Part shown: positions 27,363-50,712 of the stretch, piece by piece
Layout of the letters: each line of letters opens with the position of its first letter
Position numbering within the stretch: the stretch's first letter is position 1
DNA from: Candidatus Aquicultor sp.
Lineage (GTDB): Bacteria; Actinomycetota; Aquicultoria; Aquicultorales; Aquicultoraceae
Length of the DNA stretch: 62,110 nt
Direction: 5' to 3'
NCBI GenBank assembly: GCA_036504445.1
Contig: DASXVE010000014.1
Coordinates: 1-62,110, forward strand
The notes under the pieces: model-generated
Seen by the model: the letters and a program-made list of their open reading frames with translations, nothing else
The model's database searches: none
Told to the model about the DNA's origin: nothing
Position numbers and translations under genes: made by a program

Positions 27363-28067
27363 ATGTCGCTACCTGATACCATTGCTCAAGCGGAAGAGTA
27401 CTTAGCGGTTCAATTTAACAACAAAGGGTTGTTGTTTCAGGCACTCACGCACCGGTCTTACAGCTTTGAAAAAGACCTGCCCGACACAAATGAAAAACTC
27501 GAGTTTCTCGGGGACTCTGTCTTAAGCCTCACAGTCACCGAGTACATTTTTGATAAGTTTCCGGCTTTAAACGAAGGGGATCTGGCAAAGCTTCGGGCAA
27601 ATGTCGTCAACGCCAATTTTCTCGCCGAAATTGCGCAGCAGCTGCGTGTCGGAGATTGCCTGCTTATGGGCAAGGGCGCCGAGCAAACGGGGGGCAGGAC
27701 ACGCGTCTCTATCCTAGGCGATGCGCTTGAGGCCATTATCGGTGCCATTTACCTGGATAAAGGAATGGACGCCGCCAAAGACTTCATCCTCACGAACTTT
27801 AAAGACCTCATCGACGAGCGTGCATCAATGGGCGAGTTCGGAGATCCGAAAACCAGACTCCAAGAACTTGTTATGGCGAAGTACGGAAACATTCCGCGCT
27901 ATCGTACGGTTGAAGAATTCGGCCCGGTCCACGACCGGAGTTTCGTCGTCAAAGTATATATTAATGACGAGGCATGGGGTCGCGGTACAGGCAAAAGCAA
28001 AAAGAAAGCGGAGCAAGAGGCCGCGAAAGAGGCCTTAAAGCGGTTTGAGCAAGAGACCGCGAAATAG
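27363..28067 (+). CDS. rnc: ribonuclease III
   Basis: A 234-residue double-strand-specific endonuclease for rRNA and mRNA processing. The catalytic signature NEKLEFLGDSVLSL (about 40-53) carries acidic metal ligands, and GDALEAIIGAIYLD is the second catalytic block. A dsRNA-binding domain follows (about 158-228), with KTRLQELVMAKYG and GRGTGKSKKKAEQEAAKEAL. The last 12 codons and stop are present twice in tandem (see the repeat at 28031). It sits in the classic fabF-rnc-smc-ftsY order. Confidence 0.97.
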   Translation: MSLPDTIAQAEEYLAVQFNNKGLLFQALTHRSYSFEKDLPDTNEKLEFLGDSVLSLTVTEYIFDKFPALNEGDLAKLRANVVNANFLAEIAQQLRVGDCLLMGKGAEQTGGRTRVSILGDALEAIIGAIYLDKGMDAAKDFILTNFKDLIDERASMGEFGDPKTRLQELVMAKYGNIPRYRTVEEFGPVHDRSFVVKVYINDEAWGRGTGKSKKKAEQEAAKEALKRFEQETAK

Positions 28068-28102
28068 GCCTTAAAGCGGTTTGAGCAAGAGACCGCGAAA
28101 TA
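28031..28102 (+). repeat. 36-bp exact tandem duplication over the rnc 3' end
   Basis: A 36-bp unit starting GGCCTTAAAG and ending GCGAAATA occurs twice back to back (28031-28066, 28067-28102). The first copy holds the last residues ALKRFEQETAK of RNase III and the beginning of its stop codon. The second copy stays in frame and ends in another TAG. Only the first stop is used, so the protein is unaffected. Confidence 0.97.
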
Positions 28103-28277
28103 GGCGCTTATCGAGCTTTGCTATGAACCGATTATGCAGCGCTTATAGGGCTTTAACGGGAAGCGCTAAACAATAGTTTACAAAATCTGAGCACACGTAA
28201 TTTATAGATATTATTGTTTAAACAGCATTACTAGAACCGATAACAGATTCACCGAACTAGATCATAAGGAGTAGCCG

Positions 28278-42184: not shown

Positions 42185-42727
42185 TTACCGGTTTTGCTGC
42201 TCAAGTTCCATTACCTTTTCTCTGTACAGCTCATGGATAAGGCGCCTGTCGAACTCCCAAAAGGCTTTGAGCATCTCGTCGCGTTCTTCTTGGCTAAAAT
42301 ACTCCATGCTTGGGATGAAGAAATGCTTGTCCTCCTTTTCTATGTGCGCAGGATAAAATGTGCTGAGAACACTCATGATCCTTTCGATGTCTTCCACGGA
42401 ACCTTCATTGCCTTGTTCGTATAGCTCTTTAGCGGCAATTAGTTCCTTAACAACCCGCCTTGCAAAGGCATGCTCTTGAATCAACAGTTCCAGCATGGCT
42501 CTATGCTCGGATACGAGCGGTTTGCTCTCCAGCTCGCTAAACAAAATATGCTCTTCCTTACCATGGTGGCAGAAGTCAGCATAGATTCTAAAGAAATCAG
42601 TCGCCGCATCAATGAATTTGGGGGTTGCTTGCTGTGTTGTCTGCATTATCGCAATTTCAGCGTTAAGCTGGTTAACCATTCTTTCTATAAGCCTATGTTC
42701 TATCATCAATGGCCCGATCGGCATCAT
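42185..42727 (-). CDS. hemerythrin-like protein
   Basis: A 180-residue hemerythrin HHE-domain protein. Likely di-iron ligands: MIEHRLIER (His about 10), DFCHHGKEEHILF (about 54-66), IQEHAFARR (about 84) and YPAHIEKEDKHFFIP. It probably binds O2, NO or senses iron/redox. Starts MM: either of the two ATGs at 42727/42724. It is convergent with the CapA gene. A second, more divergent hemerythrin is at 47663. Confidence 0.85.
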   Translation of the reverse strand: MMPIGPLMIEHRLIERMVNQLNAEIAIMQTTQQATPKFIDAATDFFRIYADFCHHGKEEHILFSELESKPLVSEHRAMLELLIQEHAFARRVVKELIAAKELYEQGNEGSVEDIERIMSVLSTFYPAHIEKEDKHFFIPSMEYFSQEERDEMLKAFWEFDRRLIHELYREKVMELEQQNR

Positions 42728-44432: not shown

Positions 44433-44953
44433 TTGAGAGAATTTAAGCAACACCATATTGCGATTATGAAGCATGCAATACGACACGATTAATCCCCAAA
44501 TGATCATTTCCCATGAAGCCAAGTTGTCATCGACTACTAGCGTGAGACCGGCTATAACCGCAGAAAGGTAGTTATATCACCAGCAGCTCACCCTCGGACG
44601 GCACTATTATAGCAACGAGCGGTATAAGGCCTACTGCAAAGTTAGGCGACATCAGTAATCTTGACAGCAGTTGGATCACTTTTGCCGTCGATTTTGTCGG
44701 CGTCGCCACAACTGTGAAAATCAGCGGCAAAAGTGGCAACTTCGTAAACTCCACCTGGGGCATTTACAGGAAGTAAAAACGCCGTTGATTGCCGGAATCT
44801 CATATGGTTGATTTTCCAGCTACATAGACAGCTAAGAAAGGGGATCGTAATGATCCGGTTTCTCTATATGAGATATTTATCCAAATACTCTTTAGCTATA
44901 GAGGTATAGGAGTATACTCAGATTAGTTGCTAAGCGATAAAGGGGAGGGCGGT
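44433..44953. other. 521-bp stretch with only a gene remnant
   Basis: One plus-strand frame is open at 44558-44776 with a protein-like composition (middle part SNLDSSWITFAVDFVGV, end GNFVNSTWGIYRK) but no start codon or ribosome site. It may be the tail of a decayed beta-sandwich protein. The rest shows no gene or clear structure until the AAAGGGGAGGG site at 44938. Confidence 0.35.
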
Positions 44954-45796
44954 ATGATCCGGTTTGAAAACGATGATAGCGCTTATCTAAGTTGGTTAGA
45001 GATGAATCCTTCGGGATTTGTGGTAAACTGCGATCGAAACCCGAAGCCTAGCTATCTTATACTTCACAGCGCAACGTGTGGATTTATCAGCACATCAAAA
45101 AGGTCAAATTGGACGACCAACGATTACATCAAGATCTGCTCTAGCGATAAAGAAGAACTCCAAAAATGGGCTAAGGAGAAAGTACGAGGCCCATTAAAAC
45201 TCTGCGGGTGCGTTGCATCGCTCAGACATCCTTCAAACCTGCACCATCCGCATCAGATGAAGATCCCCGACTGGAACATCCACAATAATCATAGTCCTGA
45301 GATTATGAAAGCGTATGCCGCGTACCGGGTTGCCCGGCTCAATCTCCTTATGCAACTTGGGCTCCCTGGCTCACACCGGGACCCGCTGTCGGAATTCAGC
45401 GAGTGGTTTGTTGCTCTTCTGGTGGAAGGCACGCTCGCACGCAGCAGGGTGAAGGAAGGCTGTGACGTAATTAACGCTGATGGCCAAAGGATACAGGTCA
45501 AGTACGTAGCCAATCCTCAAGGCAAGTGGATAAACGAGCACCGTATTTATTTCTCTAAGGATATGGATTTATTCGCGCTTGTCGCGTTCGTAGATTTAGA
45601 AGTAGCTGCGGTTCTATTGTTTCCGAAAGCGAGCCTGGGGCAAGTATGCCAGTCCCTGCACAAACGGCACCCCGATCAGGATGTCTCCTTGCAGCTCACC
45701 CAGCGTAATTTTAACGAGATAATTGGTAATATAGGGTCATTTGAAGAACTCGGTGTAACCGATCTTTTACGGAAAAGCCCTCAGATCGTCCCTTAG
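44954..45796 (+). CDS. unknown protein with PD-(D/E)XK nuclease-like C-terminal half
   Basis: A 280-residue protein I do not recognise. ATG 44954 follows AAAGGGGAGGG. The N-terminal half (about 1-110) has an aromatic, Cys-containing domain: SAYLSWLEMNPSGFVVN, then KWAKEKVRGPLKLCGC. The C-terminal half has SEFSEWFVALLVEGTLARS, then CDVINADGQRIQVKYVA and DLFALVAFVDLEVAAVLLFP. That order, helix, D...GxxIQVK and two hydrophobic strands, is the pattern of the PD-(D/E)XK fold (Asp of CDV, Gln-x-Lys of IQVK). It may be a restriction-type or DNA-repair nuclease. No methyltransferase gene is adjacent. Confidence 0.55.
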   Translation: MIRFENDDSAYLSWLEMNPSGFVVNCDRNPKPSYLILHSATCGFISTSKRSNWTTNDYIKICSSDKEELQKWAKEKVRGPLKLCGCVASLRHPSNLHHPHQMKIPDWNIHNNHSPEIMKAYAAYRVARLNLLMQLGLPGSHRDPLSEFSEWFVALLVEGTLARSRVKEGCDVINADGQRIQVKYVANPQGKWINEHRIYFSKDMDLFALVAFVDLEVAAVLLFPKASLGQVCQSLHKRHPDQDVSLQLTQRNFNEIIGNIGSFEELGVTDLLRKSPQIVP

Positions 45797-45846: not shown

Positions 45847-45880
45847 AAAGGGCGGCACGAATGCCGCCCTTTCTTTGTGT
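45847..45880. terminator. bidirectional terminator
   Basis: The perfect 11-bp stem AAAGGGCGGCA / TGCCGCCCTTT with loop CGAA (45847-45872) is followed by CTTT on the plus strand and preceded by AAATATTAT. It separates the convergent genes at 45796 and 45900. Confidence 0.85.
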
Positions 45881-45899
45881 CTGCGCTGAACACAGCGGG

Positions 45900-46259
45900 T
45901 TAGTCTCTACATTCCTGCCTGCACTCATTGAAGCGTTCTCTGCGCTCTTGCTTGAACACTCTGGTGTGGTTGCACTCATTCTCACAGCCATTGAACTGCT
46001 CTCTGCATTCCGGCTTGAACTCTCTACATTCGTTGCGCTCGTGCTTGCATACTCTCATCTGGTTGCACTCGTTCTCACAGCCATTGAACTGCTCTCTGCA
46101 TTCCGGCTTGAACTCTCTACATTCGTTGCGCTCGTGCTTGCAGCCAAATTGGCCGAAGTTTGAGTTATGGCTGTCGCCAAACCCTGAGGCAAATGCAAAT
46201 GCCGGTATACCGAGCGCGACAACGAGGACTACCGCCAAAATCACTATGGCCTTCTTCAT
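45900..46259 (-). CDS. secreted cysteine-heptad repeat protein, unknown function
   Basis: A 119-residue protein with a clear signal peptide (MKKAIVILAVVLVVALG, cleavage likely after FAFA). The mature part has a 31-residue unit present twice almost identically and a third time in degenerate form. In each unit Cys are spaced 7, 7, 7, 4 (C-KHERNE-C-REFKPE-C-REQFNG-C-ENE-C), with dense Arg/Glu. This would put most Cys on one face of a helix. The ribosome site AAAGGAGGTG is strong. The role is unknown; metal binding or disulfide-linked helices outside the membrane is inference. Confidence 0.8.
   Translation of the reverse strand: MKKAIVILAVVLVVALGIPAFAFASGFGDSHNSNFGQFGCKHERNECREFKPECREQFNGCENECNQMRVCKHERNECREFKPECREQFNGCENECNHTRVFKQERRERFNECRQECRD
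45968..46142 (-). repeat. 93-bp tandem repeat within the Cys-rich gene
   Basis: An 82-bp block beginning GGTTGCACTC and ending GTGCTTGCA on the plus strand occurs at 45968-46049 and again at 46061-46142, with a period of 93 bp and one base difference visible. The near identity at DNA level points to a recent duplication or gene conversion. Confidence 0.95.
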
Positions 46260-46657
46260 ACGCTACACCTCCTTTCGTCAGGAATATCTAGACATCTAAC
46301 AAAATCCCGTATGCTATTTCCCGCTCAATGAAGCACGTAAACAACTTTTGCTAAAATCTGCTATTTAAGCGTGTCATTAAACGCGCAGTTCAAAGGAGGT
46401 GTTATCGAGGATAAACCTTAAGCCACCGTCCAACGGCAACGATTATGAGGAGAGTCTGGTCATCAATAAATGACATTATCTGATAATAGCATTTACCCCT
46501 GGTCGCATTCGTACCATTCACGTCATTTGCTATCCTCACTCACGGCCCAGCATGGACGCAGGCATGCAGACGTCCTAACGATTCCTAAAAGATGTCATGC
46601 GCAAGCTGTTTCTCAGTTGATTGGTGGGGCTTTTTGTTCTAGTATTATGCAGCCATT
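46260..46657. other. 398-bp stretch without a convincing gene
   Basis: It contains the ribosome site of the minus-strand Cys-rich gene and an AAAGGAGGTG at 46393-46402 that opens only a 23-codon frame (GTG, ending INLKPPSNGNDYEESLVINK). The plus-strand frame at 46470-46673 has no ribosome site and a basic, low-complexity product. Both look like debris in front of the frameshifted membrane gene. Confidence 0.3.
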
Positions 46658-47662: not shown

Positions 47663-48079
47663 TTAGGCAGATGCCTTAAGTTCGGCGGCAATCACTTGCT
47701 TATACAGCTCGTAAAGAATGGTCTCTTCTTTACCGATTCTGCTCTTGATGGCGTAGCTTAAGCGACCGAAATCATTAGCAAAGTCACTGCCGGAGCCGCC
47801 TTTCTTATACCTCTTAAAGAACTTTGAGACCGCCTTTGATACAACCTGCATGTCTCGCTTACACAATTGCATGGTTCGCTTGATGTCTTCATCGAGTTCA
47901 GCAGCATCACTCAAAGCGGGGTAGATGCGATCTTCTTCCTTCTTTAAGTGCACAAGAAGGTCTTCGTGCGCGCTTGCTAAAAGTTCTTGACCCTCCTTAG
48001 AAGAAACGTCAATTGTTTTCAGCTTGCTCAACATTTCGGCTATTTGCGTGTGTTCTTTTTTCAATTGGTCGATCAACAT
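47663..48079 (-). CDS. hemerythrin domain-containing protein
   Basis: A 138-residue four-helix HHE-type protein. It has QLKKEHTQIAEML (His about 10), SAHEDLLVHLKKEEDRIYP (about 37-55), and IKSRIGKEETILYELY. The third block lacks the usual His (KEET), so the di-iron site may be altered. It probably senses or binds O2/NO or iron. An AGGAGG site precedes ATG 48079; a terminator ends the gene, so it is monocistronic. Confidence 0.75.
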   Translation of the reverse strand: MLIDQLKKEHTQIAEMLSKLKTIDVSSKEGQELLASAHEDLLVHLKKEEDRIYPALSDAAELDEDIKRTMQLCKRDMQVVSKAVSKFFKRYKKGGSGSDFANDFGRLSYAIKSRIGKEETILYELYKQVIAAELKASA

Positions 48080-50112: not shown

Positions 50113-50712
50113 TTACGATCCCGGTGGAGTTTTAGGGTGGCATGTCTTGCAGCCAACGGAGGCGCGTTTCTTCTGGTGGCACGCGATGCAGGATTTCATT
50201 TTTGACCGGTCGTCATACTCCTTGTTGTTTGGGTGACCCACACGGTTATGGCAGTAGACGCACGTTATATGTAGTTTCTCGCTGTGTGTCTTGTGTGCGG
50301 TCGTAATCCGTGCGGATATCAGCCGTTTACTAGAATGGCAAACCGAGCAGCTTTCAAAGCTCGAAGCCTTGCTAAGAACACTACCTTTGTTAATCGGGGC
50401 AACATAATCATTTTTAGAATGTAAAAACATATCCCTTAGAATATGTAATTCCGTTCCGGCAACGCTCGTTACGGAAAAGCTAAAATCAGCGTGGCACGAC
50501 CCACAGTCCACCGTTGCATGATTTGAGGTCATCCAGGAGTTATACGACGGTTGCATTTCATGGCAGCGGTTGCAGAATGCCGGTTTTGAGGTGGCCACAA
50601 CACCTCCGGCCAGGAGTAATATTACAACCGCTGCCGCAACCGTAAGTGACAATGCTAGCTTCTTATTGTTCTTTATGCGCTCTACGACCTTGGCAACGTT
50701 TATTGGTTTCAT
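50113..50712 (-). CDS. membrane-anchored six-haem cytochrome c (NapC/NirT-like)
   Basis: A 199-residue cytochrome with one N-terminal membrane anchor (about 19-41, LSLTVAAAVVILLLAGGVV). Six CxxCH haem-binding motifs follow: CNRCH, CGSCH, CSVCH, CVYCH, CIACH and CKTCH. The first pair with CHEMQPSYNSWM matches the NapC/NirT/NrfH quinol-dehydrogenase family, but those usually bind four haems. It probably carries electrons between the quinone pool and an extracytoplasmic partner. No reductase gene and no cytochrome maturation genes are adjacent. The ribosome site is moderate. Confidence 0.88.
   Translation of the reverse strand: MKPINVAKVVERIKNNKKLALSLTVAAAVVILLLAGGVVATSKPAFCNRCHEMQPSYNSWMTSNHATVDCGSCHADFSFSVTSVAGTELHILRDMFLHSKNDYVAPINKGSVLSKASSFESCSVCHSSKRLISARITTAHKTHSEKLHITCVYCHNRVGHPNNKEYDDRSKMKSCIACHQKKRASVGCKTCHPKTPPGS

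Follow-up and report, generated by a model that had tools for sequence, protein, structure and literature searches.

The Csp copper-storage proteins make up the DUF326 family (PF03860), of which Csp1 is exported and Csp3 is cytosolic. Csp proteins are described as Cys-lined four-helix bundles that bind large quantities of Cu(I) (PMC9484137), and a periplasmic Cys-lined helical bundle binding much Cu(I) is also on record (PMC12510493). Here we analyzed a window of 62,110 nucleotides from Candidatus Aquicultor sp., by which we mean the whole stretch of DNA, and found on its minus strand a gene for a 119-aa protein that is similar to the Csp proteins in having many Cys along predicted helices and in carrying a signal peptide, as exported Csp members also do. 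It differs from them, however, in that the Csp spacing is of the C-x2-C-x3-C type, as opposed to 7-7-7-4 in the 119-aa protein, and in that a four-helix bundle is absent from the structure models, which contain three helices (single-sequence predictions, pLDDT ~51). In addition, PF03860 gave no match in the protein (Pfam to E 1) or anywhere in the genome. By analogy, it is plausible that thiol-lined metal-binding helices are a principle common to both. The gene and its elements are arranged as follows:

45900..46259, minus strand: whole gene, 119 aa (from the list of open reading frames and the translation)
46266..46275, minus strand: ribosome-binding site AAAGGAGGTG, 6 bases 5' of the ATG (read from the sequence)
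46188..46259, minus strand: Sec-type signal peptide MKKAIVILAVVLVVALGIPAFAFA (sequence reading), with putative cleavage after AFA
46143..46187, minus strand: Gly/Ser/Asn-rich linker SGFGDSHNSNFGQFG (sequence reading)
46050..46142, minus strand: repeat unit 1 CKHERNECREFKPECREQFNGCENECNQMRV (Tandem Repeats Finder and translation)
45957..46049, minus strand: repeat unit 2 CKHERNECREFKPECREQFNGCENECNHTRV (Tandem Repeats Finder and translation)
45903..45956, minus strand: diverged tail FKQERRERFNECRQECRD, 18 residues with one C-x3-C and a resemblance to the latter half of the unit
45847..45872, minus strand: bidirectional intrinsic terminator with an 11-bp stem, common to the convergent open reading frame 44927-45796 on the plus strand

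The protein therefore has the layout MKKAIVILAVVLVVALGIPAFAFA-SGFGDSHNSNFGQFG, two units of CKHERNECREFKPECREQFNGCENECN(QM/HT)RV, and then FKQERRERFNECRQECRD. Its predicted mature part of 95 residues contains 12 Cys, 20 acidic residues and 4 His, with a net charge of -2, and hydrophobic residues are sparse, Phe excepted. The start-codon context reads ...GACGAAAGGAGGTGTAGCGT-ATG, with normal spacing from AAAGGAGGTG to the start, while the hairpin at 45847-45872 is strong and has terminator-like tails on either strand. With a strong ribosome-binding site on one side and a bidirectional terminator on the other, the open reading frame looks like a genuine single-gene unit, and we conclude that 45900-46259 really is a small gene, whose Cys-rich product is predicted to be exported. 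The first-pass annotation had called the product secreted, which our reading of the signal peptide supports, and export would probably proceed via the Sec route. A simple scan found no sigma-70-type promoter for the gene, and one distant tRNA was the only RNA family above threshold in the whole window. Two plus-strand open reading frames were rejected: that at 45861-46163 starts inside the terminator, and neither it nor that at 45928-46299 has a ribosome-binding site comparable to the one on the minus strand.

The Cys residues lie at positions 40, 47, 54, 61 and 65, then at 71, 78, 85, 92 and 96, and finally at 113 and 117, such that the spacings are 7, 7, 7 and 4 within each unit and 6 from unit to unit, and the 31-residue unit has the pattern C-x6-C-x6-C-x6-C-x3-C-x5. 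Tandem Repeats Finder placed the repeat at 45941-46142 (period 93, 2.2 copies, 93% matches), which, together with the translation, bears out the earlier description of near-identical 31-residue units with Cys at 7/7/7/4 and a 93-bp period. The 93-bp tandem duplication is certainly far beyond chance. Units 1 and 2 differ at 5 of 93 nucleotides, with two amino acids changed (QM to HT), and both changes leave the Cys intact, which is a weak point given that only 5 bases differ. Because the units are near identical, the 7-7-7-4 spacing counts in effect as a single independent observation; when 5 Cys were placed randomly in 31 positions, at least 3 pairs at +7 arose in 0.36% of trials (p ~0.004, for one unit), and three successive gaps of one and the same length (3 or more) arose in 0.74%. 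The array consists of two full units and the diverged 18-aa tail and is not a long one. The tail and the second half of unit 1 are alike at 23 of 39 bases (shuffle p ~0.03), which suggests that the tail may be an older third copy of the unit. When compared with one another, the three 21-bp heptads at the start of the unit were unconvincing as repeats (p 0.26), and heptads 1 and 4 have 15 of 21 bases in common. Elsewhere in the window, a 36-bp tandem repeat (28011-28110, 2.8 copies, 95% matches) lies across the end of an RNase III-like gene (27363-28067); since it includes the stop codon of that gene, the final codons recur downstream together with the stop.

Neither Pfam nor NCBIfam contained anything above threshold for the protein, the best PHROGs match reached only E 0.013, and there was no match among solved structures (PDB), plasmids or phages. 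The gene itself aside, nothing was found at E 0.001 in 60 relatives and 396 genomes of the phylum, and none of the other 10 family genomes carries the gene. Searches of species genomes and viral contigs with short peptide seeds, which reach close relatives only, gave no relative. The absence of matches in Pfam, NCBIfam, PHROGs, PDB and the phylum agrees with the prior view that the protein is unlike any named family and, at the sensitivity reached in the databases and genomes covered, it is an apparent orphan.

Two matches in relatives (L003 and L004; E 0.01 and 0.1) were set aside as chance, being antisense to a conserved membrane-protein frame beside an ABC ATPase, in a region that is cytochrome c maturation-like by our reading. 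Scanning the class for C-x6-C-x6-C-x6-C-x3-C gave few matches outside the gene and no convincing gene, many of the matches lying in simple repeats or stop-containing frames. With a Cys-plus-acid pattern in species genomes, the matches read, among those listed, were Cys-rich low-complexity frames or unrelated proteins, one of the latter being an exported Cys-rich protein of Epsilonproteobacteria with only a weak DUF326 match. L090 and L104, which are exported Epsilonproteobacteria proteins, have 24 Cys mostly in C-x2-C-x3-C order and a Csp-like look; L090, the only one of them scanned with Pfam, fell below the DUF326 cut-off. The closest in appearance among the matches listed was L032 from Daviesbacteria (CRTEKNNCRQEKNNCREEQFNCRQEC), which likewise has Cys every seven residues, R/E/N between them and a terminal C-x3-C. 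BLASTP gave 39% identity over 57 residues, although L032 was retrieved by a pattern requiring the same spacing and its similarity was partly selected for. Unlike our gene, L032 sits in a 2553-codon open frame, and the resemblance more likely reflects convergence than descent. Like CpxP/Spy, the 119-aa protein combines a signal peptide with a charged, partly helical sequence, and NCBIfam PRK12750.1 (CpxP/Spy-like) matched it weakly (E 0.008, 16.2 bits vs a cut-off of 148). However, this match is far under the cut-off and spans residues 2-60, much of it over the signal peptide, and there was no Pfam match.

Two single-sequence structure predictions, with and without the signal peptide, gave mean pLDDT values of 50 and 52 and pTM values of 0.31 and 0.35, so that neither model is good enough for comparing folds, and on their own they are little evidence. 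Both contain short helices spanning approximately residues 52-67, 83-97 and 104-118 (precursor numbering), with Cys 54/61/65 and 85/92/96 on these low-confidence helices. At the same low confidence, the helix in each unit starts near the Pro of FKPEC and leaves out Cys 1 and Cys 2, so that Cys 3, 4 and 5 (spacing 7, 4) are the only ones of a unit to share a helix. The proposal that the Cys lie on one helix face held in part: the spacing fits, with a within-unit Cys resultant of 0.94 at 100 degrees per residue, but each unit is interrupted by a Pro between Cys 2 and Cys 3 and by Asn-Gly between Cys 3 and Cys 4. Since the modelled helix starts at the Pro and excludes the first two Cys, the picture of one long heptad helix is weakened. 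In designed three-stranded coiled coils, Cys at heptad core positions bind metals. One designed trimer carries a Ni(Cys)3 site (PMC10299331). The helices of such designs are continuous, whereas Pro and Asn-Gly interrupt the heptads of the 119-aa protein.

The usual bacterial disulfide route is DsbA with DsbB or VKOR (PMC11208910). DsbA, DsbB, VKOR and Thioredoxin_4 were not detected in this genome, which is rated 100% complete, while control genomes were positive in the same searches. This lowers the likelihood of a disulfide bundle welded by enzymes and favours reduced thiols, while leaving room for spontaneous oxidation or for an unusual or unrecognised oxidase; consequently, the disulfide-linked bundles first suggested for this protein are not favoured.

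The neighbouring genes encode an RsgA-like GTPase, a 289-aa protein, a small membrane protein, a GNAT acetyltransferase, a hemerythrin and an RRM protein; the 289-aa protein and the small membrane-protein open reading frame beside the gene are without family assignment. No adjoining metal gene or metal regulator was found among them, and they point to no pathway. Homologues of RsgA and the hemerythrin are on different contigs in draft relatives, hence there is no empty site to compare. Two hemerythrin-domain genes (42185-42727 and 47663-48079, both on the minus strand) lie ~5 kb apart with the Cys-repeat gene between them, and a homologue of the one at 47663-48079 is present in 9 of the 10 other family genomes. 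The gene at 50113-50712 encodes a multiheme cytochrome c that is NapC/NirT-like, suggesting that respiratory electrons are transferred at the membrane.

We tentatively prefer the interpretation that the protein is a lineage-specific exported thiol/metal buffer, Csp-like in its working and not a Csp member, with a confidence that falls somewhat short of even; the metal binding first suggested for it thus stays the favoured guess. It would be translated from its own gene and exported through the Sec pathway, and its 12 thiols would be exposed on short helical segments linked by loops. With no recognisable disulfide-forming system, these thiols would stay largely reduced and could together coordinate soft or transition metal ions (such as Cu(I), Zn or Cd) outside the cytoplasm, or alternatively act there as a thiol buffer, and tandem duplication of the 93-bp unit would have added binding groups. 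We count in favour of this buffer role the signal peptide, the ribosome-binding site and the terminator; the 12 Cys in 95 mature residues, with acidic residues and His as possible further ligands; the unit differences that spare the Cys, the Cys on modelled helices and the undetected DsbA, DsbB, VKOR and Thioredoxin_4; and the existence of helical bundles that are lined with Cys and bind Cu(I) in quantity. Many thiolate metal sites contain CXXC, and the absence of this motif from the protein counts against it, as do the lack of an adjoining metal gene or regulator, the poor models and the failure to find homologues in which Cys conservation could be checked. A bolder version, in which the protein would represent a new exported metallothionein-like family whose 31-residue Cys-heptad helix units grow in tandem into a ladder of thiolate metal sites outside a cell without a known disulfide-forming system, seems to us distinctly improbable.

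The evidence does not separate the buffer interpretation well from its rivals. The protein could be a disulfide-stabilised structural component of the cell envelope, with helices of the same or of different chains tied together by Cys pairs into a cross-linked bundle or coat. This would suit an exported, repetitive protein with an even number of Cys (12) and few hydrophobics except Phe, and enzyme-free oxidation of exported Cys is possible; but the enzymes sought were undetected in the genome (other oxidases could exist), and 5 Cys per unit is an odd number, so that pairing must cross units, and we regard this role as unlikely, if credible. The gene may also be a young orphan under little or no selection for a function, encoding a short exported peptide of low complexity that grew when 93 bp were duplicated by chance. 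It is missing from the other 10 family genomes and ~395 other genomes of the phylum, the flanking genes are apart in relatives, two neighbours lack an assignment and the copies are separated by only 5 bases, whereas its good ribosome-binding site, signal peptide and terminator and its ordered Cys spacing (p ~0.004, one unit) argue otherwise, leaving this origin doubtful though by no means negligible. We give very little credence to the idea that the product is secreted to act on other cells, as a bacteriocin-like peptide or a helical-hairpin antimicrobial: the protein is small, exported and Cys-rich, with C-x3-C motifs that we take to recall alpha-hairpinins, but its net charge is -2, no adjoining immunity, processing or export gene was recognised, and there was no family match in Pfam, NCBIfam or PHROGs.

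Taken together, the gene looks genuine, contains a recent duplication within its coding sequence, encodes regularly ordered Cys and has no known relatives. Small secreted proteins that are rich in Cys and have no relatives are a common find, and the surprise is therefore moderate, while the missing disulfide machinery gives the case slightly above-average interest. Its lasting value at present lies in a clean description and a negative search. If the protein does not bind metal, its gene would be a further example of the small secreted orphans that are so common; if it does, we would have a thiol-rich metal buffer outside the cytoplasm, with no sequence relationship to Csp, in an organism apparently without Dsb/VKOR oxidation.
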